This document shows positions 1 through 11,164 of a stretch of 35,749 nt of DNA, one piece after another (position 1 is the stretch's first letter; every line of letters begins with the position of its first letter). The notes below the pieces were generated by a model. It saw nothing but the letters and a program-made list of their open reading frames with translations. It was not told where the DNA came from and searched no databases. The stretch lies in contig CANGLU010000027.1 of NCBI GenBank assembly GCA_947455025.1, forward strand, positions 1 to 35,749. The letters are read 5' to 3'. A program made the translations under genes and the position numbers. This DNA comes from Hyphomicrobiales bacterium. Its GTDB lineage: Bacteria > Pseudomonadota > Alphaproteobacteria > Rhizobiales > Beijerinckiaceae.

Positions 1-398
1 CAGATTTTTAGACGCATCTTAATTTTTAATTCTTCACTTGGCGCCACTTTTGCTGCTTCTGTACCGTCCCGTGAGATTATAAAAAGTGCCGTTGCCTCAA
101 GCGCATTTACGGCATGGCGTCTCGCGGAACGGCCTTCCACACCTGCTTTTTGGGCAAAAGCCGTGCTTATGATTGCTGGCTTACCACCGGAAACTTTGTA
201 ATGCCAAAGTACCCACAGAGCCAACGGCCAAGCCTTTGCAGACATTTCTTTTGAGGCAAGGGCTGTAACGCATGCCATCGGGATATGGAGGTAGTAGTGT
301 GGGACATTCGGCGCAGGCGGTATTTTACGACGACGTTTAGCGGCTACACCATCAACCATAACACTTTCTTCAATGTAGCCTTCGGATGTGGGTTTCAT
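1..398 (-). CDS. Partial hypothetical protein, possible helix-turn-helix, last visible gene of the mobile-element operon
   Basis: An open frame begins with ATG at 398 and runs without a stop to the window edge, about 132 codons, so the C-terminus is missing. Its ATG overlaps the TGA of the DNA polymerase gene (ATGA overlap), which indicates translational coupling. The product starts MKPTSEGYIEES, has a basic KRRRK stretch near residues 21-25, then a helical region (SKEMSAKAWPLALWVLWHY) and a stretch with the feel of a winged helix (AFAQKAGVEGRSARRHAVNAL). This resembles HTH domains of plasmid or phage replication proteins, but I do not recognise the family. No function is assigned. Confidence 0.7.
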   Translation of the reverse strand, partial: MKPTSEGYIEESVMVDGVAAKRRRKIPPAPNVPHYYLHIPMACVTALASKEMSAKAWPLALWVLWHYKVSGGKPAIISTAFAQKAGVEGRSARRHAVNALEATALFIISRDGTEAAKVAPSEELKIKMRLKI

Positions 399-2296
399 TT
401 GATACCCTTCAGTGCGGAGTTGCCTTCCAGAGCCTTAGAAACGACGGCCCACATCTTATCACCCTTTTTAGGCCTCCAATTGTCGCCTGGTAAAACCCAT
501 TGACGGTCTACGGGGATTCTTGCACCTAGAATGGTTAGGGCTGCCCTTTCCATTATGTTGGCAACGAGATTGCCGACCTCTTCACGGCATGAAAGATCGC
601 AAAGAAATAAAATGGCATCATGGACAGGGCATATTACCTCCACGCCTGCCGTTGTTAGTGCCGCGCAGGTCAGACGGATAATATCGGCCCCTGTCGCCTG
701 CATTTGCCAATTCATGAGGGTGAGTGGCTTAGTGCCGTATTCTTGCCATCGCCCATTCTCAAGCACCCGTGTAGAAGGGTCCCCTACAAGCATCCGCCAA
801 CCCATTCGCGTTTCAATTGAGCCAGTTAGATAGGCGTTCTGGGCAACTTGGGCCACCCAATCCCAAAATACCTGATGGGTGGTATGATGCTGTTGGTAAA
901 TGCGCTGAGCCAGTGATAGGTCGGCTCGATAAGTTGCTGGATTGCCACCCCCAATAGCAGAGGCAATACCTTCGGATTGACGGCCATATTGAAGCCCAAG
1001 AAGCACGGGTTTTAGGACCCTGTCCCTAAATTCACCGTGTGTGGATTTAGTTGCACCGACGGGTATTAGGCCAGACCGAATACCAAGAGGGATATATACT
1101 TCGCCTCCAAGATAATCCTCAATCATATATTGGTCGCCACTTAGATAAGCGGCTATGCCATATTCTTGAGATTTAAAATCAAAATAACCGATCGCTTTGC
1201 CGTCTGGCGGGGTGACTAGCGTGCGCCACCAAGAAGCGGAGGCGGGTAAAAATTCAACGGCGCGAGGTTGGTTTCTTCCAGTCTTAGAGCGGTATGCCCC
1301 AAAACCTACCGACGCAGTATTGTCGGTGCTGAAACCTAAACGCCGATTGCCAAATTCGCGACGCCCAAGCCTTATTTTTCCATCTGAACAAATTGGAAAG
1401 GGAGATGCTTTTGGCGTCGACGCAACAGCTTCATAGACTGCCCTAAATTCTTCCATTTGCGGGTAAATTCCCGTCATGCGTCGGAAGTCTGATGATTTTG
1501 TTGAATATTGGCCGCTAGGTGTACGCGGCCAGATATCGCTAGCTCCTAAGCTTTCAACAATAGTTGCAAAGCGGTCGTACTTAAAGGTTCCTTCATTATC
1601 AAAAATTCCATAGTGCCTTACACTACTTATAAGTTCACCTTTAACGGTATCCCAATTCGTTACAATAGCGTCGTGTAGGGGAACGTTAATTGGCAAGCCG
1701 GTACGGGTCATTTTTGCCAAAGATTTTGCATATTCACCACGTAACAGTGCCTGATTTAAATAGTGTGGGTTACTAGCGCTTAGCCTATTAAATAAAGCCC
1801 AAAATAAGGCTTCGGCGTCGTCAACATCCTGTTGGCAATACGAAAGAATTTCAATTTTTTCGGCATCGCTATAGGGCGGCCCTGCAAGAATACGTTCAAT
1901 TACACTTTTTTTCTCAGTTGCTTCGCGTGCTTCAAGGCCGTTGCATTTTAATGCAGCAAGAAGCCCACCTCGCGCGCTTGACCCCATTGGGATATCTGCC
2001 TCATTCGTATCATTCATATGCTCTGCATAGGTGCAGTAAACATTTGTTGGAAATGCCCACCCCATAGCGAGGTGGGCCTCCATTTCGGCCTGCGCATTGT
2101 GTGCGATTAACATTGCGCTATGGCCAAATTCGAAGAACGGCGTGCGGTCCATTTCATCACGCCACACGCGGGTGATTTCTCCCGTAAGTAAATTTTTAGC
2201 GACGCCGCAAACGACGTCTAACCCACCGTCGGACAGCGGAATATATTCGTAGTCGACAGCAATTGGGATGAAAGGTAGGCGCACGCCGCTCTTCAT
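395..2296 (-). CDS. Phage-type family A DNA polymerase (PolA-like, with N-terminal exonuclease-like region)
   Basis: A 633-aa DNA polymerase of the PolA superfamily, presumably copying the mobile element. The C-terminal half carries the three palm/finger motifs: motif A with Asp373 (FDFKSQEYG), motif B around 424-438 with Lys429, Leu433 and Tyr437 (KPVLLGLQYG), and motif C with His559-Asp560 (CPVHDAILF). The N-terminus (VDYEY near residue 14) looks like the start of a DnaQ-type 3'-5' exonuclease; no 5'-3' nuclease domain is evident. The length suits phage or plasmid polymerases rather than the chromosomal PolA of about 900 aa. Leu433 aligns with E. coli Phe762. The ATG directly follows the TAA of the upstream gene, and the stop overlaps the next start, so it lies inside a coupled operon. 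Family is confident; its role in element replication is inferred. Confidence 0.9.
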   Translation of the reverse strand: MKSGVRLPFIPIAVDYEYIPLSDGGLDVVCGVAKNLLTGEITRVWRDEMDRTPFFEFGHSAMLIAHNAQAEMEAHLAMGWAFPTNVYCTYAEHMNDTNEADIPMGSSARGGLLAALKCNGLEAREATEKKSVIERILAGPPYSDAEKIEILSYCQQDVDDAEALFWALFNRLSASNPHYLNQALLRGEYAKSLAKMTRTGLPINVPLHDAIVTNWDTVKGELISSVRHYGIFDNEGTFKYDRFATIVESLGASDIWPRTPSGQYSTKSSDFRRMTGIYPQMEEFRAVYEAVASTPKASPFPICSDGKIRLGRREFGNRRLGFSTDNTASVGFGAYRSKTGRNQPRAVEFLPASASWWRTLVTPPDGKAIGYFDFKSQEYGIAAYLSGDQYMIEDYLGGEVYIPLGIRSGLIPVGATKSTHGEFRDRVLKPVLLGLQYGRQSEGIASAIGGGNPATYRADLSLAQRIYQQHHTTHQVFWDWVAQVAQNAYLTGSIETRMGWRMLVGDPSTRVLENGRWQEYGTKPLTLMNWQMQATGADIIRLTCAALTTAGVEVICPVHDAILFLCDLSCREEVGNLVANIMERAALTILGARIPVDRQWVLPGDNWRPKKGDKMWAVVSKALEGNSALKGIK

Positions 2297-3031
2297 TTAT
2301 GCCTCCCCGCGAATCTTAACGATAAGTGGATCGTCGCGATGCTTAATTACATTTCTCTCACCAAAAGCACGGTTAAGGATCGAAGCTGCCGATACATCTT
2401 CGGGCCATTTGGGTTCGGAAATTTCGCCTTCGGCAGTGTAATCATCATATTGCTTGTCAGTTTTGCTCCACTCCAAACGTTTCCATTTAGTACGCGCTGC
2501 TTCTACGGCATCAATTTTTTGCTCAATAGCAGAGTGATGGCGCCCAGTTGTCGGGTCAGGAACAGGTGCAAGGAATAAGTATAATGCCCCGCCCTTCGTT
2601 GCCACGAGATAGCAGACAACCTCGTGAATAGCGTTCTCAAAAGCCGTACTTTCCATCCGCAGTTCCTCCGCCAATTCTGGAAGAATGAATGTAGGCTCGT
2701 CAGAGAGAATACCCTCATCTTTAGGGTCAAAGATGTCGATTGGGCCGATCAGAACCGTCGGGTGAGTACGAAACCACCCTTTGATCCTCTTGGTAGGCTT
2801 TATGCGCGAAGGTGCTTTGACAACACGTGCCGCCGTGTTCGCTGCCGCATCACTTTTGGATTTTAAAGCAAGCTCAAAGATGCTCTCTACGGCCTTAGAT
2901 CCTGATGGGGCCTTAGGTGGAGTTTCGGGGACTGTAAGGTTACTGGTATTTTCAAGGTCAGGCATTTTAGCGGCCTCAGAATTTTCGATACGGGAAGGGT
3001 CTTCTGCTTTGGGAGGAGTCACAGGCTTCAT
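2297..3031 (-). CDS. Hypothetical mobile-element protein (244 aa)
   Basis: I do not recognise this family. The first 85 residues or so are rich in Pro, Ser, Ala and Lys and look disordered. The rest looks like a compact mixed alpha/beta domain beginning around KGWFRTHPT and ending near VIKHRDDPLIVKI. The ATG is preceded by a strong GGAGGAG ribosome-binding site and overlaps the stop of the HTH gene upstream. The polymerase ATG follows its stop with no gap. That close coupling suggests a polymerase accessory or DNA-binding function, but this is inference from position only. Confidence 0.75.
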   Translation of the reverse strand: MKPVTPPKAEDPSRIENSEAAKMPDLENTSNLTVPETPPKAPSGSKAVESIFELALKSKSDAAANTAARVVKAPSRIKPTKRIKGWFRTHPTVLIGPIDIFDPKDEGILSDEPTFILPELAEELRMESTAFENAIHEVVCYLVATKGGALYLFLAPVPDPTTGRHHSAIEQKIDAVEAARTKWKRLEWSKTDKQYDDYTAEGEISEPKWPEDVSAASILNRAFGERNVIKHRDDPLIVKIRGEA

Positions 3032-3321
3032 GACTGTTCTCCTCCGTTTTGGCAGGATGATTGCCCACCCGGCATGGCATTACCGAATTTTGCCTTTGGT
3101 AAATTACGAAGGCGACGGCGGATGCTTTCGACAGTCACCAGAGTACGGCGGCCACGCTTGATTGCGTGGAGTTCGCCGGCGGCAAGAGCACGGTAGAAAG
3201 ATGAGCGACTTTCATTGCCGCTCATACGGCGCCCTTCATCAATTGAGACAATCGTTGCCTCATTCATTTCAACCAATTTTGATTGATTTTTATGCATACT
3301 AGGCATAGCAAATAACTCCAT
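3028..3321 (-). CDS. AlpA/excisionase-like helix-turn-helix protein
   Basis: A 97-aa basic protein whose centre (SIDEGRRMSGNESRSSFYRAL, then ELHAIKRGRRTLV) has the layout of AlpA/MerR-type winged HTH proteins: a recognition helix followed by a small wing that ends in a conserved Arg/Thr strand. Such proteins in integrative elements act as excisionases or as activators of integrase expression. The C-terminal tail is Gly, Ser and Gln rich. Its stop overlaps the next start (ATGA). Internal methionines at residues 6, 9 and 19 are possible alternative starts. The short palindromes just upstream (3335-3400) are plausible binding sites for it or a partner. Family call is good; specific role is inferred. 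Confidence 0.8.
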   Translation of the reverse strand: MELFAMPSMHKNQSKLVEMNEATIVSIDEGRRMSGNESRSSFYRALAAGELHAIKRGRRTLVTVESIRRRLRNLPKAKFGNAMPGGQSSCQNGGEQS

Positions 3322-3334
3322 AAACGCTTCTTGA

Positions 3335-3397
3335 ACCCACTGTGGGTCCCCTGAAGTATTTTGGAATTTATGGAGTAAATTCCCCGGTTAAGCGGGG
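3335..3397. promoter_or_regulatory. Cluster of three short palindromes upstream of the AlpA-like gene
   Basis: The 91-bp gap between the 238-aa gene and the AlpA-like gene contains three inverted repeats. ACCCAC-T-GTGGGT lies at 3335-3347. GGAATTTA with TAAATTCC and a 5-bp spacer lies at 3363-3383. CCCCG with CGGGG and a 6-bp loop lies at 3382-3397. The first two look like operators; the third could be a weak hairpin, although no clear U-run follows on the minus strand. The repeats are read directly; operator function is inferred. Confidence 0.5.
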
Positions 3398-3412
3398 GGC
3401 TTTATCAGATTT

Positions 3413-4129
3413 TTAAGGGACGACTGTTCCGCTATGCTTTAAAGCCAATATGCAGTTAGGGACAGTTTTCTTGGCATCGTTATCGGTTGCATTTGGGCCT
3501 AGCATCCTCTTCAATTCAGTTTCTATGCCCCGATAAATTGCTAGGGATTCAGGTGGGTTTCTACTCCCCATTTCTTCGCGCCAACGCCTTATCGTTTCCC
3601 ATTTTACGAATTTGGACCCGTTGTTATTAATCAATTTTTCTTTTTCGAGCGCGCGTAAGACGAATTTACAAGCTTCTTCAACTGTTATGCCATAATGAAT
3701 GAGAACTTCCGCACACGCTGCAGCAGTCGCTTGTCTTGAAATCAAGCCTGATAATGAACGAGGGCGGGAGCCTGTTTTTTTGGTCGGTCTAAGAAATTCA
3801 GGCTTCGCACCTAGCGTAACATCGCGAATAACCGCTGCTAACATCGCAACCGGCCTTACAATGCCGCTTTGGGCTATTATCGGGTCTAGTTCCAAAAATC
3901 GTTTAACTGCAACAATAGCATCGAGGCATTCTTCGAGCGGATTAGCTGACGTCGACAAATCCTCGTTCAGCTCTTTCAAAAAAAGGATCAGGTCAAAATA
4001 ACGATCCGCCAGTTCGGCTACTTCTACTTCAACTAAAACAAATTCTTTAGCAATTATCGCCCCATCGCCTTCCTCTGGATGGCCCATTGGGGTACTTTTT
4101 AGATTCTCAGCCTCGCTATCTGTCACCAT
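3413..4129 (-). CDS. Hypothetical protein downstream of integrase (238 aa)
   Basis: A soluble 238-aa protein with no signal peptide or membrane segment. The N-terminal half is acidic and helical. A central basic patch (RPTKKTGSRPRSLSG, near residue 120) precedes a helical part containing FVKWETIRRWREEMG, which could be a DNA-binding helix pair. It lies 12 bp after the integrase stop, so the two are very probably co-transcribed. I cannot place it in a named family. Position suggests a recombination or regulatory partner of the integrase, but nothing in the sequence proves that. Confidence 0.7.
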   Translation of the reverse strand: MVTDSEAENLKSTPMGHPEEGDGAIIAKEFVLVEVEVAELADRYFDLILFLKELNEDLSTSANPLEECLDAIVAVKRFLELDPIIAQSGIVRPVAMLAAVIRDVTLGAKPEFLRPTKKTGSRPRSLSGLISRQATAAACAEVLIHYGITVEEACKFVLRALEKEKLINNNGSKFVKWETIRRWREEMGSRNPPESLAIYRGIETELKRMLGPNATDNDAKKTVPNCILALKHSGTVVP

Positions 4130-4141
4130 CTTGTCCCCCGT

Positions 4142-5422
4142 TTAATCCGCCAACCGAACAATATTTGAGTCGGGCACAATTCCAAGTTTTGGGAGCGAAG
4201 CCCGGATCGTATCGGCTACGTAAGATGGGGCGAGGTGGGCGTAGTGCTTTTCAGTCATGCGAGTGTCCGAATGTCCCAGTTGGGCGGCAATGACCCCCAT
4301 TGGCACTCCGGCCATCGCTAAAAGGCTAGCGTAGGTGTGACGGAGAACATGGAAAGTGGCGGGAGGATCAATGGCAGCGACTTTGGACGCCTCGATGAGG
4401 GGGCGTCGTTGATGCGAAGCGCCCCATTTGTCGCCGTCCTCCCGGTTAAAAATACGCGCGAGAGATGAGCGGCCTGAAGTTAATTGGCGGAAGAGGGCTT
4501 CCCCTTCATCGTTCAGGGCTATTTGTCTTGGCTTTTCGCCCTTGGTAACTCTCGCAAGAATAGTCTTGGAGTTAGCGTCAAAATCTCTGACCTGAAGGCG
4601 AGTTAATTCCCCGTAACGGCATCCGGTCAATAATGCGCCTCGAACAAGGTTCCTGAAATCCTCAGGGCAAGCATTTACAAGGCGCTCCGCTTCAGAAGGT
4701 TTAAGGTATCGGATAACTGCTGCATCCACGCCTCGAAACGGTTTCACCTTTCTCCAAGGCTCATCAGATGCAACCTTGCCCTCTTGGAAGGCATGATTTA
4801 GGGCGGCCTTTAGGATCGTAAGGACGCGGTTTGCGGTTGAACGGCGTGCCCGAACTGCGTCGGTGTCTGACAAATCCACACGGGCGGTAGCCTGTTCTGG
4901 GGCAAATTTCCTTGTTCTTATTAATTTAGGCCCCTCAGAGAGGATAAAATGCCAATCCCGAATGCGCTTTGACGTTAGTCGGCTGATTTGAATATTACCA
5001 AGATCAGGCATTATCCGAGCGTTGGCTGCATATTTATCAGCCTTTACACCTTTAGATCCACGGCGTTCCCTGGCCTTGAAATAGTCATCAAGCGCCATCG
5101 CCACCGTATAAGGGCCTTTTATAATTTCTTCTCCGCGGCCTTTCCGGACAAAAAACGTACGCGCCTTTTCCTGCGCCTGGCTAAAGGAAAGGCAAGAGGT
5201 GGCGTCTGCATCGCGGACATCGTCTGCGGCACCTATAGACTCGTAATTTTGCCGCCCACCTTCGTCCCGAAAACGTGCAATCCAAGTGCCTGCTTTGGCG
5301 CCTTTGCGATAGCCAATGGCACACCCCGTTGAAATGACATGCCAATACGGCTCACGGCGGGGCAATAGCGGATCACGTGAGGTTCGAGTGTTAAGCCGGG
5401 GGTCTTTTACGCTACGGGCCAT
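4142..5422 (-). CDS. Tyrosine site-specific recombinase (phage/ICE integrase)
   Basis: A 426-aa tyrosine recombinase that would integrate and excise the element at tRNA-Glu. The catalytic set is visible: Arg269 in LLTGCRYGELTRL, a Lys in the RVTKGEKPRQIAL beta-hairpin, HVLRHTY (His-x-x-Arg), the LGHS histidine, and nucleophile Tyr394 in EKHYAHL. The N-terminal half contains an arm-binding type domain and a SAM-like core-binding domain (about 105-215). An AAGG ribosome-binding site lies 8 bp before the ATG at 5422. It is the first gene of the leftward operon and lies 160 bp from the tRNA fragment. All active-site residues are present, so it may be functional. Confidence 0.95.
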   Translation of the reverse strand: MARSVKDPRLNTRTSRDPLLPRREPYWHVISTGCAIGYRKGAKAGTWIARFRDEGGRQNYESIGAADDVRDADATSCLSFSQAQEKARTFFVRKGRGEEIIKGPYTVAMALDDYFKARERRGSKGVKADKYAANARIMPDLGNIQISRLTSKRIRDWHFILSEGPKLIRTRKFAPEQATARVDLSDTDAVRARRSTANRVLTILKAALNHAFQEGKVASDEPWRKVKPFRGVDAAVIRYLKPSEAERLVNACPEDFRNLVRGALLTGCRYGELTRLQVRDFDANSKTILARVTKGEKPRQIALNDEGEALFRQLTSGRSSLARIFNREDGDKWGASHQRRPLIEASKVAAIDPPATFHVLRHTYASLLAMAGVPMGVIAAQLGHSDTRMTEKHYAHLAPSYVADTIRASLPKLGIVPDSNIVRLAD

Positions 5423-5456
5423 GCTGCGACCTTATTTGAGGATGGACAACCAAACA

Positions 5457-5476
5457 TACGGAAAACGTACGGAAAA
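5457..5476. repeat. Tandem direct repeat next to integrase and att site
   Basis: TACGGAAAA occurs twice, at 5457-5465 and 5468-5476, with an 11-bp period (one helical turn). It lies between the integrase start and the tRNA fragment. The position suits arm-type binding sites for the integrase, or an operator in the integrase promoter. The repeat is read directly; function is inferred. Confidence 0.5.
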
Positions 5477-5582
5477 GTCACGCAGAAACATTCAGATACG
5501 TGCTTGGAATAAATTTGTTGAAAAATATGACTTTTTATACGTTATTGGTGTCCCAGATTGTATCCAAATGTAAACGATTTCA

Positions 5583-5628
5583 CTCTTTCACGGCGAAAAC
5601 ACGGGTTCGATTCCCGTAGGGCGCGCCA
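5583..5628 (+). other. 3' fragment of tRNA-Glu(TTC), probable attachment-site duplicate (att)
   Basis: The stretch reads as the 3' part of a tRNA. It has an anticodon loop CTTTCAC (anticodon TTC) at 5585-5591, anticodon-stem strand GGCGA, variable loop AAAC, T-stem ACGGG and CCCGT around TTCGATT (5601-5617), acceptor strand AGGGCGC, discriminator G, and encoded CCA at 5626-5628. Loop, variable region and discriminator match bacterial tRNA-Glu. The expected 5' half (an acceptor strand GCGCCCT near 5553) is absent, so this is a fragment. Next to an integrase, the natural reading is the duplicate created by integration into tRNA-Glu, with the intact gene at the other end of the element, left of this window. 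Confidence 0.85.
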
Positions 5629-5722
5629 AGGAAATTTTCAATAAATCAATGGTTTATGAGGCAGTAGACTTTTTAGAGGTCTTGGCCGTCGCTTTACCAT
5701 CCTTATTACAGTCGAATTTCCC

Positions 5723-6895
5723 TTATAATTTTGTCCACCGTCCTGCTTTTGCCGATGAGGCGACCGCCGCCTCGATAAAGGCCAGTCCTTTGACGCCGTC
5801 CTGGATCGTTGGGAACAGAACGGCGGCATCAGGCTGTGTGCCGCTCCGTGATGCGTGGATTGCGTGGGCAATTTCGGTATAAATATTGGCGAACCCTTCA
5901 AGATACCCTTCCGGATGTCCCGGAGGGACGCGCGTCATACGAGCGGCTTCGGCGCCTGAGCCCGCGCCACCGCGTGTAATCGTATAGGTCGGCTTGCCGA
6001 TGGGTGAAAACTGAAGATAGTTCGGATTTTCTTGCGACCACGACAATCCGCCCTTGGTGCCATAGACGCGGATGCGCAGCGCATTTTCGTTACCAACAGC
6101 AACTTGGCTCGCCCAAAGCGTGCCTTTTGCGCCATTGGCATAATGCATGCGAACATGCGTATCGTCATCCAAGCGACGGCCTTGCACAAAGCTTGTCAGT
6201 TCGGCCGATAGTTCCACTACCGGAATATTGACGATGAAATCGGCCAGATTAAACGCGTGCGTGCCAATATCGCCGATGCATCCACCCGCACCCGAGCGCG
6301 ATGGATCAGTGCGCCAATCGGCTTGCTTTTGTCCCGTTTGCTCAAGCGGTTCGGCTAGCCAATCTTGGGGATACTCGATTTGAACAACCCGGATTTCGCC
6401 CAGTTCCCCGGCGGCGATCATCGATCGGGCCTGTCGCACCATGGGGTAGCCCGTGTAATTATGGGTAACGGCAAAAATCTTACCGGATTTTTCAGCGGCC
6501 GCCTGCAATTTCAACGCTTCTTTGAGCGAGGTCGTTAAAGGTTTATCGCAAATGACATGGATGCCGGCTTTTAAAAATGCCAGCGCGGGGCCGGCATGCA
6601 TATGGTTTGGCGTCACAATGGCGACGGCTTCAATGCCATCTTTGCGGCGCCCTTCTTTTTTGGCCATTTATTCATAGGTGCCATAGACACGTTTCGGGTC
6701 GAGGCCAAGAGACGCGCCGGACCGCAATGATTTTTCGGGCGTCGAACTTAATGCCCCGGCCACAAAGCTGTAGTGATCGTCCATTCGTGCCGCCAAACGA
6801 TGAATGGCGCCGATAAAGGCACCTTCACCGCCACCGACCATGCCGAGGCGAATGCGACCGCCGATGCTACCGTCATCTTTTCCTGTAATCGCCAT
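5723..6895 (-). pseudogene. Gfo/Idh/MocA-family oxidoreductase interrupted by an in-frame stop
   Basis: Two consecutive frames, 6895-6668 (75 aa) and 6667-5723 (314 aa), are in the same phase and separated only by a TAA at 6670-6668. Together they make a normal 390-codon NAD(P)-dependent oxidoreductase. The first piece holds the Rossmann nucleotide-binding motif ([12 protein letters not shown]). The second holds AIVTPNHMH, the CDKP motif and the C-terminal substrate domain. The break falls in the Rossmann domain, and one base change from GAA would explain it. An ATG follows the stop immediately (TAAATG), so reinitiation is conceivable, but a product lacking the nucleotide loop would not bind NAD. 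A sequencing error cannot be excluded. Substrate unknown, likely a sugar or inositol. Confidence 0.85.
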
Positions 6896-7105
6896 CGTGT
6901 CCGTTTCCCTCTGCGGTCGTTTTTATAAATGCGGGGCATTCGTTTGATTAGCTTTTATAGAGCTCATTGCCGTCGAAATCGTCAATGGCTAATTACATGT
7001 CCTGATTTCGGCATCGTTTGAGAATATTAGACCCAATCTGCGTACTTCGACGAAGCGTTGGTCGAATATGCGATTTGCCGTCGTTCTGGCCTAAATCTTG
7101 CTGAG

Positions 7106-7145: not shown

Positions 7146-8657
7146 ATGGTCGATGCGAACCCTTTAACGACGTCTTCAACGCCGACGGCAGCGAGCCGTT
7201 CGGCGACGGCTAATAAATTATTTCAGATTTTGGATCCCAATAACACGGGAAAGATCCAAAAATCGGACTTTCTCGAGCTCTACTCGATGCTTGGAAATGG
7301 CGGTGCGCGCGGTGGTCCGCAAACCGATTCCTTTGGGATCACCCAGACAACCTACTCCATTCAGGAGACGAGCTATAATATCGTATCGGAAAGCTATGTT
7401 GCACCCGATCGCTTTTTAGAAACGAGCTCCGCGGCCGTTGTCCATGCGGCCAATGTGTTTACCAGCTTGGATGTAGACAAATCGGGTGCCCTGTCGCGCG
7501 CGGAGTTTATGGTGGGCCTTGGCGCAGGTCCTTCGACGACGCCTACAGATCCGTCGACGACCTCTTCAACCGATCCATCGTCGCAAACGACCGCGTCGAG
7601 TGGCACGGGAACAGATGCTGCCTCGTCTACCGGTACAACGTCGAGCGCATCGGATGCTCTTGTGGCCGATGCGACCAGCCAAGCCGATCAGGCTCTGGCG
7701 CTGTTTGACCCGACAGGCAAAGGCTATTTCGATGCCAATGATGTTGTGGCAGCGTTTACCCAATCTCCTTCGCTCGGTGATCCTGCAACAGCCGCACAAA
7801 CCGTTTCGGCATGGGATGACAATGGCGATGGTAAAGTAACCCGCGATGAGTTGATCAGCGGATACACGACGATGAACCTCGCCGATGCCCTGATGAACCA
7901 GCTTGATCCAACAGGACAGGGCTATATCGATACGTCGTCCCTTTCTTCTGTCGCTCTGCCGAATTTCCCGAACGCTTCGACGATTATTGCGGGTTGGGAT
8001 ACCAACAAAGATGGTCAGGTGAGCCGCCAAGAAGTGATTGATGGCTTTCATGCGTTAAACGCAAAGGCCAGTTCGAATACAGCGTCTTCCGAAACGACGG
8101 CTCAAGATCCTGCGGCACTCTTTGCTCATTATGACGCCAATAAAGACGGGTCGCTTGATCTTTCGGAGATCACATCGGCTGCGGGTCCATCTGCTGCAAC
8201 CGATCCGTCCCAAACCTTGGCAGCATGGGACACGAATGGGGATGGCACGGTTTCGCAGCAAGAATTTACGGATGGCTTTAATCTGATTAAGCAGGCCACG
8301 GGCATCATTGCGCAGTATGATACGGCGGGTAAAGGCTATTTCGATCAAGCCGATTTGCAAGCGGCCATTGACTCCGACCCAACGAGCAATAATGGGACGA
8401 GTGCCTCTGACCTGATGAAGTTTTGGGATTCAAACGGGGATGGCAAAGTGACGGTTCCCGAAGTTTTGGCGGGGCTTGCCAATGGCGGGACGGCGGCTGC
8501 AACCCCTGTTGCATCAACCACGCCTGATCCTTCAACAAGCAATAGTGTGCCGGACGTATCCAATCTTTTATCGGCCTATGGCTACTCGGCCGCGCCTGTG
8601 ACGCCAGCGCTCACAGACACTTCATCGGCCGCCTCTGACCCGACGGTTAGCGCGTAA
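7146..8657 (+). CDS. Protein with ten EF-hand-like calcium-binding loops
   Basis: A 503-aa acidic protein with ten 12-residue EF-hand-type loops, starting at about residues 30, 109, 188, 224, 254, 285, 330, 362, 392 and 428. Loops 4, 6, 7, 8 and 10 are canonical (WDDNGDGKVT, WDTNKDGQVS, YDANKDGSLD, WDTNGDGTVS, WDSNGDGKVT). Loops 1, 3, 5 and 9 are degenerate DPTGKGY-like versions that pair with canonical ones. A Ser/Thr/Pro-rich linker fills 128-178, and the C-terminus from about 455 is similar low-complexity sequence. No signal peptide is visible, so it is cytoplasmic or exported by a route not obvious from sequence. An in-frame TAA directly precedes the ATG and fixes the upstream limit. Calcium binding is expected; cellular role unknown. 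Confidence 0.88.
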   Translation: MVDANPLTTSSTPTAASRSATANKLFQILDPNNTGKIQKSDFLELYSMLGNGGARGGPQTDSFGITQTTYSIQETSYNIVSESYVAPDRFLETSSAAVVHAANVFTSLDVDKSGALSRAEFMVGLGAGPSTTPTDPSTTSSTDPSSQTTASSGTGTDAASSTGTTSSASDALVADATSQADQALALFDPTGKGYFDANDVVAAFTQSPSLGDPATAAQTVSAWDDNGDGKVTRDELISGYTTMNLADALMNQLDPTGQGYIDTSSLSSVALPNFPNASTIIAGWDTNKDGQVSRQEVIDGFHALNAKASSNTASSETTAQDPAALFAHYDANKDGSLDLSEITSAAGPSAATDPSQTLAAWDTNGDGTVSQQEFTDGFNLIKQATGIIAQYDTAGKGYFDQADLQAAIDSDPTSNNGTSASDLMKFWDSNGDGKVTVPEVLAGLANGGTAAATPVASTTPDPSTSNSVPDVSNLLSAYGYSAAPVTPALTDTSSAASDPTVSA

Positions 8658-9766: not shown

Positions 9767-11164
9767 ATGTCTGAGCAACCTACCCACGCGCTGGACGAAA
9801 TAGGATCGGCCGCAGCCTTTGCGCCCGATCCTGATTTTGTTGCGCGTGTCGAATTCGCGATTGCAGCCGATGATGCTGATGCGCTTGGTCCGCTGATTGA
9901 AGGGTTGCACGAGGCCGATCAGGCGAGTTTGCTTGAAGCGCTGGATCATGATTCCCGCCCCAAGCTGATTGAGCTTTTGGGATCACGCTTTGACTTTGCG
10001 GCGCTGACCGAAGTGGATGACTCGGTCCGCGAGGATATTCTGGACGAGCTTGATACCGATACGCTTGTCGAAGGGATGCGTGAGCTCGAAAGCGACGACG
10101 CGGTCTATATTCTCGAAGATCTGGATCAAGACGAGCAAAACGAAATTCTTGAAGCATTGCCCGCGATTGACCGCGCGCAATTGCAAAAGAGCCTTGATTA
10201 TAAAGAAGGTTCAGCCGCGCGTTTGATGCAAACGCATTTGATTGCGGTGCCGCCTTTTTGGACGGTTGGGCAGGTGGTGGATCATTTGGCGGAAGCTGCC
10301 GATTTGCCCGATAGCTTCTTTGAAGTCTTCGTTGTCGATCCGGGCTATCATCTCTTGGGCAATGTGTTTTTAGATCGGCTTGTGCGGGCTCAGCGCACGG
10401 CTCCGATCGAGAGCGTGATGATTGCGGATCGCCGCCGTGTGCGGGCGGATGATGAGCAGGACGATGTAGCCCGCTTGTTCCAGCGGTATAATCTGGTCTC
10501 GGCACCCGTGGTCGATGAAGCGGGTCGGTTGATCGGTGTTGTAACCATCGATGATATCGTCGACGTGATGCAGGAAGAAGCCGATGACGAGATCAAAGCG
10601 CTCGGCGGCGTTAAGGCGGAAGAAGAGCTCTCGGATTCGATTTTCTCAACCACACGCAATCGCTTCGGCTGGTTGTTTGTGAATTTGCTGACGGCCTTTT
10701 TGGCGTCTTCCGTCCTAGGCTTGTTTGAGGAAGAATTGTCCAAGATGGTCGCACTGGCCGTACTGGCACCGATTGTAGCAAGCCAAGGCGGCAATGCCGC
10801 CACTCAAACGATGACAGTTGCCGTGCGAGCCCTGGCAACGCGTGAATTGGGGCCTGCCAACGCTTTCCGGATTACCTTCCGCGAAACGGCAGCAGGGCTT
10901 TTAAATGGTCTGGCTTTCGGATTGATTACGGGTCTTGTTGCAACCTTATGGTTTCACGACTGGAATATTGGCATCGTGATCGCGCTGGCCATGACGGTTA
11001 ATCTCGTTGCGGGTGCTTTAGGCGGCATTCTTATTCCACTGGGGCTCGAGCGGTTTAGAACGGATCCAGCGGTATCATCGGGCGTTTTTGTCACGACGAT
11101 TACGGATGTTGTCGGCTTTTTCTCGTTTTTGGGCATTGCTACGCTGTGGTTCCATCTGCGCTAG
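9767..11164 (+). CDS. mgtE: Magnesium transporter MgtE
   Basis: A 465-aa inner-membrane Mg2+ channel. Domain order is typical: an acidic helical MgtE-N superhelix (about 40-135), tandem CBS domains (about 140-265, with PVVDEAGRLIGVVTIDDIVDV), a connecting helix, and five membrane helices from about 295 to the end. The pore signature ASQGGNAATQTM is present in the second membrane helix. MgtE gates on cytosolic Mg2+ through the N and CBS domains. GAGAAGGG lies upstream of the ATG, 22 bp after the oxidoreductase stop, so the two may share a transcript, although their functions are unrelated. Confidence 0.96.
   Translation: MSEQPTHALDEIGSAAAFAPDPDFVARVEFAIAADDADALGPLIEGLHEADQASLLEALDHDSRPKLIELLGSRFDFAALTEVDDSVREDILDELDTDTLVEGMRELESDDAVYILEDLDQDEQNEILEALPAIDRAQLQKSLDYKEGSAARLMQTHLIAVPPFWTVGQVVDHLAEAADLPDSFFEVFVVDPGYHLLGNVFLDRLVRAQRTAPIESVMIADRRRVRADDEQDDVARLFQRYNLVSAPVVDEAGRLIGVVTIDDIVDVMQEEADDEIKALGGVKAEEELSDSIFSTTRNRFGWLFVNLLTAFLASSVLGLFEEELSKMVALAVLAPIVASQGGNAATQTMTVAVRALATRELGPANAFRITFRETAAGLLNGLAFGLITGLVATLWFHDWNIGIVIALAMTVNLVAGALGGILIPLGLERFRTDPAVSSGVFVTTITDVVGFFSFLGIATLWFHLR

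Follow-up and report, generated by a model that had tools for sequence, protein, structure and literature searches.

The integrase end of an integrated element

The window analysed here, a stretch of 35,749 bp, is the entire contig C27 of assembly G000 (2.5 Mb in 87 contigs, 98.5% complete). Its left part (1–5632) is the integrase end of an element integrated in a tRNA-Glu(TTC) gene, and the element is interrupted exactly at the left edge of the contig. Six leftward genes occupy positions 3–5422 on the minus strand, and all of their frames are open. The same six genes had been listed in a first-pass annotation, and all were present. From right to left, they encode a tyrosine recombinase (integrase) of 426 aa (4142–5422; Phage_integrase PF00589, 1.6e-23; phrog_1, 1.6e-59), a 238-aa protein adjoining the integrase gene int (3413–4129), an AlpA-like helix-turn-helix (HTH) protein of 97 aa (3028–3321), a 244-aa protein called DUF244 here (2297–3031), a family A DNA polymerase, PolA, of 633 aa (395–2296) and a winged HTH (wHTH)-like protein of 132 aa (3–398).

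The 238-aa protein had no family match, and the sequence of its counterparts in relatives was variable. The AlpA-like protein matched HTH_17 with an E value of 2.6e-4 and 21.6 bits (curated cut-off of 27) and is a probable excisionase or activator. PolA matched DNA_pol_A (1e-13) and has 3'–5' exonuclease motifs as well as polymerase motifs A, B and C. For DUF244, no credible known family or fold was found. An AlphaFold2 model based on an alignment of three sequences (the protein of relative L072 was modelled) reached a pLDDT of 54, Foldseek returned no match in PDB or BFVD at E 0.001, and the single match to PDB sequences had an E value of 0.84. The wHTH-like protein had no credible family either. 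In family searches, none of the six proteins matched a DUF3987/DUF5906 primase, pri-rep, capsid, portal, large terminase or relaxase/conjugation family, in line with the earlier statement that no capsid or conjugation gene is visible at this end of the window.

The intergenic spacing from int to the wHTH gene was 12, 91, −4, 0 and −4 nt. Because 91 bp lie ahead of alpA while the other genes are packed tightly or overlap, there are probably two transcription units, int–238 aa and alpA–DUF244–PolA–wHTH. The gap (3322–3412, minus strand) would hold the control region of the alpA unit. An inverted repeat found in the G009 copy (described below) has arms at 3310–3324 and 3367–3381, with 13 of 15 positions paired, and extends into the start of alpA. 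Promoter-like and terminator-like sites did not exceed those of shuffled sequences (5 versus 6.3 and 4 versus 7.7, respectively). The first-pass annotation had proposed a single, partly overlapping operon ending in the polymerase. The overlaps are real, and two units are more probable than a single one. As the wHTH gene closes the alpA unit, it is the final gene. This gene had been called HTH-like and partial: the first part of the description holds, and the gene is complete because its copy in G009 stops after the same 132 residues and the window begins within the stop codon at the contig edge.

Integration site and the two ends

The core of the right attachment site, attR, is a 48-bp segment at 5585–5632 (plus strand), consisting of a 44-bp 3' fragment of tRNA-Glu(TTC) and the bases AGGA. 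The fragment (5585–5628) is 100% identical over its 44 bp to the 3' part of an intact tRNA-Glu(TTC), which lies in the same assembly at G000:C31:26447–26522, and the four following bases are identical as well. The repeat had been given as 46 bp from 5583 to 5628; it starts at 5585 and reaches its 48 bp through AGGA. Apart from this correction, the proposal of an element integrated in tRNA-Glu(TTC) was borne out, as both the intact tRNA gene and the direct repeat, which were to be looked for, are on C31 and an arm repeat is present at both ends.

This arm-type repeat, TACGGAAAACGTACGGAAA, is located at 5457–5475 beside the integrase gene; its partner, TACGGAAAATATACGGAAA, is located at C31:26570–26588, just beyond the intact tRNA. 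We take the two to be arm-type sites of one integrase, on the strength of their common pattern TACGGAAAANNTACGGAAA. The 2.5-Mb G000 assembly has two copies of the pattern, one per element end, and G009 also has two; G008, G004 and G010 have none. The reversed pattern, used as a control, had no copy in any of the five genomes. Because the arm pattern is found at both, C31 and C27 represent the two ends of one element.

The ends are on separate contigs, and the assemblies of G000 and G009 both lack the middle. It was not bridged: L038:1–520 matched only itself (in G009) and nothing in G000, and L039:9707–11478 matched just C121 and C31. Other genomes of the genus show the site joined. In G004, G010 and G008, the left flank of C31, the tRNA-Glu and the right-hand genes of the window are together on one contig, with the right-hand genes beginning at window positions 7646, 7146 and 7087, respectively. 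G006 was uninformative, as its flanks are on separate contigs (L050 and L051), each of which ends near a tRNA-Glu copy.

By eye, the stretch 5633–7086 of the window contains an oxidoreductase-like gene; G008 has ~130 bp between the tRNA-Glu and the equivalent of 7087. The stretch 7146–8657 is an open reading frame (ORF) of 503 aa in which EF-hand-like DxDxDG motifs recur (by eye). In several genus members (L042, L047, L049 and L003), a tRNA-Glu gene or fragment is followed by tails of the TTTCAA type, which contain motifs resembling GTTTGTGTCCC or GTCTGTGTCCC. Because such tails recur, several integrases appear to use tRNA-Glu as their site. In the relatives L069 and L072, the fragments beside int were judged by eye alone to be 3' halves of a tRNA; Rfam recognised no tRNA fragment there, nor did it recognise the known fragment of the window.

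A near-identical copy in a second species

G009 belongs to a second species of the same genus. Its copy of the element piece was near-identical, and its flanks were diverged. Window positions 1–5632 and G009:C4:517–6148 were 99.8% identical, with 11 differences, of which 10 were in genes (wHTH one, PolA none, DUF244 one, AlpA three, 238 aa one and int four) and one was in the tRNA fragment. At most three residues differed per gene. Chromosomal blocks matching between G000 and G009 were 66–77% alike, the 1-kb stretch ending in the tRNA was 69% alike, and the first kb to the right of the tRNA fragment was poorly alignable (51%). This contrast speaks for transfer of the element.

At the tRNA-side end, the two genomes were identical for 237 bp beyond the tRNA, 213 of them preceding an insertion, and the full match of 1158 bp was 85%. 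The insertion, IS3-type by eye (L004 from 14637 onward and L039 9920–11141), is at the same point in both genomes. The two copies differed (85% over the match) despite the identical 213 bp before them, and a further copy was not found in G000 or G009. Candidate explanations for the shared position are a hot spot, gene conversion or an assembly effect. On C31 (L004 15581–19025), the truncated insertion sequence (IS) passes directly into pqq genes, and this junction is a rearrangement or a misassembly. The pqq genes are unlikely to be cargo of the element: relatives of PqqE with 82–89% identity are on contigs without tRNA-Glu(TTC) in G004, G006, G009 and G010, and the G006 contig bears another tRNA-Glu-like gene (84% identical) ~7 kb away.

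Both genomes have an IS close to the intact tRNA (the G000 copy is truncated), and the window PolA has a one-residue insertion in motif B, as one might expect of a dead remnant kept by chance. Six open frames with so few residue differences from the copy in another species argue against decay, and we regard a remnant as highly improbable.

A conserved module around the polymerase

We compared 18 element loci, i.e. the window and 17 others, without counting the G009 copy separately. A DUF244 relative was found ahead of PolA in 16 of the 18 loci (with one small gene in between in L117 and L121) and a wHTH relative after PolA also in 16. DUF244 was absent from L113, a remnant that lacks the start of PolA, and from L153, which is cut by a contig end; wHTH was absent from L069 and L114 (cut). 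The DUF244 and wHTH profiles were built from 11 loci each, and in the seven loci outside the profiles each was found in five. No module match was seen at four phage PolA loci, one of which (L154) has a record that ends with the polymerase. Among 109 control loci, selected after the removal of 27 that overlapped element positions, the only match was L073, a second copy of the element locus L102.

An integrase was seen in 14 of the 18 loci. It was over the Pfam cut-off in nine (the window, L069, L072, L102, L112, L114, L115, L150 and L152), under it in L116 and recognised by eye in L113, L117 and L149; the L121 integrase had no Pfam match and 35% identity to that of L115. None was seen in L040, L105 and L153, which are short or cut contigs, or in L151. 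In L112, the integrase is at the opposite end and points back. Phage_AlpA was over the cut-off in L072, L112, L149 and L150, and HTH_17 in L069 and L102. The HTH candidates of L114, L115, L116 and L117 had no clear Pfam family, and the L121 candidate had none in NCBIfam.

The polymerase itself matched phrog_17 (phage DNA polymerase) at 1.7e-27. Motif A Asp373, motif C His559-Asp560, ExoI Asp15-Glu17 and ExoIII Tyr153-Asp157 were kept in all covering rows of the alignment, and ExoII was Ala-Glu in every covered row. Leu433, which by motif mapping corresponds to E. coli position 762, was invariant in the 13-row alignment. PolA of the Leu762 type has been reported from cultivated temperate phages (PMC6302109). 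A 28-row tree had a branch with 100/100 support that separated the 18 element polymerases, together with a partial polymerase of a Silvanigrella phage, from six rows taken as DNA polymerase I (PolI) and three phage PolA. The PolI candidate L075 was left out (wrong frame). The position of the window PolA within the element clade is unsure because of long-branch warnings, which included the window row.

Distribution of relatives

Within the genus, the window-type polymerase was present in 3 of 12 genomes: G000 itself, G009 and G008 (35% identity), and the related element of G008 is located elsewhere in its genome. This patchy occurrence and the joined flanks without the polymerase in G004, G008 and G010 exclude that the six genes are fixed chromosomal genes, which the first-pass annotation had named as the finding that would count against an element. 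In G008 (L040 4618–6243), a long repetitive Thr/Ala-rich ORF adjoins the module.

Beyond the genus, the polymerase was rare. A strong match was found in 2 of 397 genomes of the order sample (G000 and G080) and a match far over the assumed PolI level in 2 of 398 genomes of the phylum sample (G000 and G735). The other matching genomes (15 of 17 in the order sample and 66 of 68 in the phylum sample) were at the assumed PolI level; they were taken as carrying chromosomal PolI and not counted. A five-row profile at 1e-32 found 6 of 385 class genomes, G000 and G735 among them, and 4 of 247 genomes in the order of G735. In the order of G957, 10 of 136 genomes matched a 13-row profile, in some cases with a cut or stop-broken gene, and neighbourhoods were examined for five of these ten (G957, G1366 at two places, G1372, G1457 and G1432). 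The gene set, for which a synteny search had been suggested, was found in other alphaproteobacteria. In G1366, the module is present in two copies (L149 and L153), and a contig end truncates the second. G735, G1335 and G1322 appear to be SAR11-like, judging by their genome size of 1.2 Mb and their codon composition.

In IMG/VR, two contigs were found (L072 and L121). With three of the polymerases as queries, 1, 911 and 32 phage records matched, none of which covered 80% of the query. A plasmid search with the window polymerase gave no match.

Complete relatives and packaging genes

Three relatives indicate the size of a whole element. In L115, 8.9 kb extend from a tRNA-Met (1715–1791) to a 41-bp repeat at 10633; shuffled stretches gave a maximum of 17. 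In G735, a tRNA-Arg and a 42-bp repeat are 9.9 kb apart if the single contig is circular. The contig L121 has 9177 bp and an exact 99-bp terminal repeat; it is therefore a 9078-bp circle or a concatemer unit. In the ORF lists of L115, G735 and L121, no capsid, portal, large terminase, relaxase, primase or helicase gene was seen (by eye, except for the proteins submitted to family searches).

These sizes bear on whether the element is an ordinary prophage, with its integrase end in the window and its structural genes in the missing middle. The unassembled middle in both G000 and G009 leaves room for such genes, and the phrog_17 match of the polymerase is of phage type. The complete relatives of 8.9–9.9 kb without visible structural genes (mostly by eye) speak against a prophage, as do both assembled ends in G009, which enter stretches without long ORFs (the C121 end by eye). 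We therefore consider a prophage improbable.

Some relatives carry a gene for a terminase small subunit (TerS) soon after the module. Terminase_2 was over the cut-off in L115, L116 and L121, and the L069 protein matched phrog_57 (7.5e-22). In L121, the two ends of the contig each hold a piece of the TerS gene, the second of which shares 56% identity with the L116 TerS. L115 and L121 fit the general description of a phage satellite, which has an integrase and a packaging gene or signal but lacks a full structural set.

TerS is also where a pipolin-like, self-replicating integrative element has to be weighed. Such an element would need no phage helper and would spread by transformation or chance transduction, the terminase-like genes being later additions. 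The element has its own polymerase with proofreading motifs; TerS was found in just 4 of the 18 loci, none of it in the window part; and no cos, pac or origin was identified. Within L038:1–6200, direct repeats of at least 12 nt within 600 bp were not found. Against autonomy, four relatives bear TerS soon after the same module, no primase or helicase was seen that would provide it, and the AlpA-type regulator and the order int, small gene, alpA are as in phage satellites (PMC10803314, PMC6092414). A self-replicating element is unlikely in our judgement.

Further genes were seen near the relatives. A glycosyltransferase-like gene (by eye; L103 554–1486) is within the 9.9-kb G735 element and is possible cargo. 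In G778 (L112 1328–7543), the module adjoins genes that by eye resemble type I restriction-modification genes and are possible defence cargo. A small opposite-strand CxxC protein recurs near the ends of SAR11-like elements (L102 15702–15914, L103 1586–1933, L115 9832–10032 and L121 756–959); three were tested, and none had a Pfam family.

A probable phage satellite with its own polymerase

We favour as moderately probable that the window holds one end of a small integrative phage satellite, inserted in the 3' end of tRNA-Glu(TTC), which supplies its own replicative polymerase. The first-pass annotation had left a prophage end, a satellite and a self-replicating element side by side, and the relatives favour the satellite with its own polymerase. 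At slightly less than an even chance, we further propose an old and separate family of alphaproteobacterial satellites, ranging from Rhizobiales to SAR11-like bacteria and built on DUF244–PolA–wHTH, that bring a replicative polymerase with proofreading, have neither primase nor helicase, and borrow helicase and primers from the host or the helper.

Several observations weigh against the satellite reading. No helper phage was identified. TerS was not seen in the window element, the middle of which is missing, and it was limited to four loci in total, with several others cut. A HGG_STG gene is present instead in L040, L150, L151 and L152 (four of four tested), and of the three proteins scanned against PHROGs, those of L152 and L150 matched TerS families at 1.1e-5 and 0.038, respectively, and that of L040 matched none. 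The match of the AlpA-like protein was under the Pfam cut-off. The window PolA has an extra residue in motif B (Arg424–Lys429) that the other 12 rows do not have, and it may be impaired by it. The repeats of L115 and G735 are the 5' half of the tRNA, as opposed to the 3' part in the window, and exact direct repeats were not found in the searched stretches of L069, L072, L112, L116, L117, L040, L149, L150 and L152, several of which are cut by contig ends. Finally, G009 continues for 515 bp beyond the last gene and holds just a 71-aa opposite-strand ORF there, and primase, TerS or structural genes in the unassembled middle of G000 and G009 are possible.

The closest layout is that of the phage-inducible chromosomal minimalist islands (PICMI) of Vibrionaceae (PMC10803314). 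As in these, there are few genes, namely int, a small variable gene adjacent to it, an alpA-like gene, one unknown gene and a replication gene, and no capsid-remodelling genes were seen (PMC10803314). The PICMI gene iolg and the gene of the 238-aa protein are in the same position, and both are variable in sequence (PMC10803314). PICMI excision needs alpA, int and the int-adjacent gene, and alpA expression by itself is a sufficient trigger (PMC10803314). The replication gene differs: PICMI have a DUF3987/DUF5906 primase, whereas the present element has PolA with DUF244 and wHTH. The sites and hosts differ as well, with fis in Vibrionaceae on the one hand and tRNA genes in Alphaproteobacteria on the other. 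Of the features that define PICMI, the element has the integrase; its site is tRNA-Glu and not adjacent to fis, the location in the PICMI model applied to Vibrionaceae, and for AlpA (PF05930 or PF12728) it has the HTH_17 match of 21.6 bits against a cut-off of 27. The best reading is therefore a phage satellite with a PICMI-like layout and a family A polymerase as its replication gene, which is outside the PICMI definition since its site is not fis and no primase was seen.

Gram-negative PICIs share int, an AlpA-type regulator, a replication module and, in some, terS (PMC6092414). AlpA is an activator in a PICI, and terS is present in some PICIs; their replication module is pri-rep (PMC6092414), in contrast to the polymerase here, beside which no primase was seen. 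VEIMEs, named for their occurrence in virions, and tycheposons are likewise integrative elements of aquatic bacteria, and tycheposons share the tRNA border and the tyrosine recombinase (PMC10803314, PMC11389934, PMC10872708). Some of the relatives described here may have been listed among them before. Pipolins resemble the element in being mobile elements defined by their own DNA polymerase (PMC9710591). Theirs is the primer-independent family B enzyme piPolB (PMC9710591); the window polymerase is of family A, with no sign of a priming function. A family A polymerase is also the feature shared with PolA-carrying virioplankton phages (PMC6302109). Literature searches, confined to the listings of an open-licence library, returned no paper on a polymerase-bearing satellite in Pelagibacter, SAR11 or Alphaproteobacteria, and the element may already be in the published VEIME and tycheposon tables.

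Proposed mechanism and significance

Infection by a helper phage would switch on the alpA unit. By analogy with PICMI and PICI, AlpA and the integrase, perhaps with the 238-aa protein, would then excise the element in circular form. The wHTH protein and DUF244 may bind an origin or load PolA, and PolA would copy the element with a helicase from the host or the helper. We infer replication by the element's own PolA because the DUF244–PolA–wHTH set is constant. The element DNA would be packed in helper capsids, which some relatives may mark it for via their own TerS; packaging by a helper is suggested because relatives carry this gene. The circular or concatemeric L121 contig is compatible with helper-induced excision and packaging but does not demonstrate them. 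Bringing the polymerase and borrowing helicase and primers would be the reverse of the primase-bearing satellites (P4, PICI and PICMI).

If this holds true, carrying a proofreading family A polymerase, with a fixed unknown partner ahead of it and wHTH behind it, would be one more way in which a minimal parasite can gain control of replication. The DUF244–PolA–wHTH triplet is a marker by which such elements can be found, and it assigns to two unknown protein families, DUF244 and wHTH, a role in binding the origin or loading the polymerase that can be tested.

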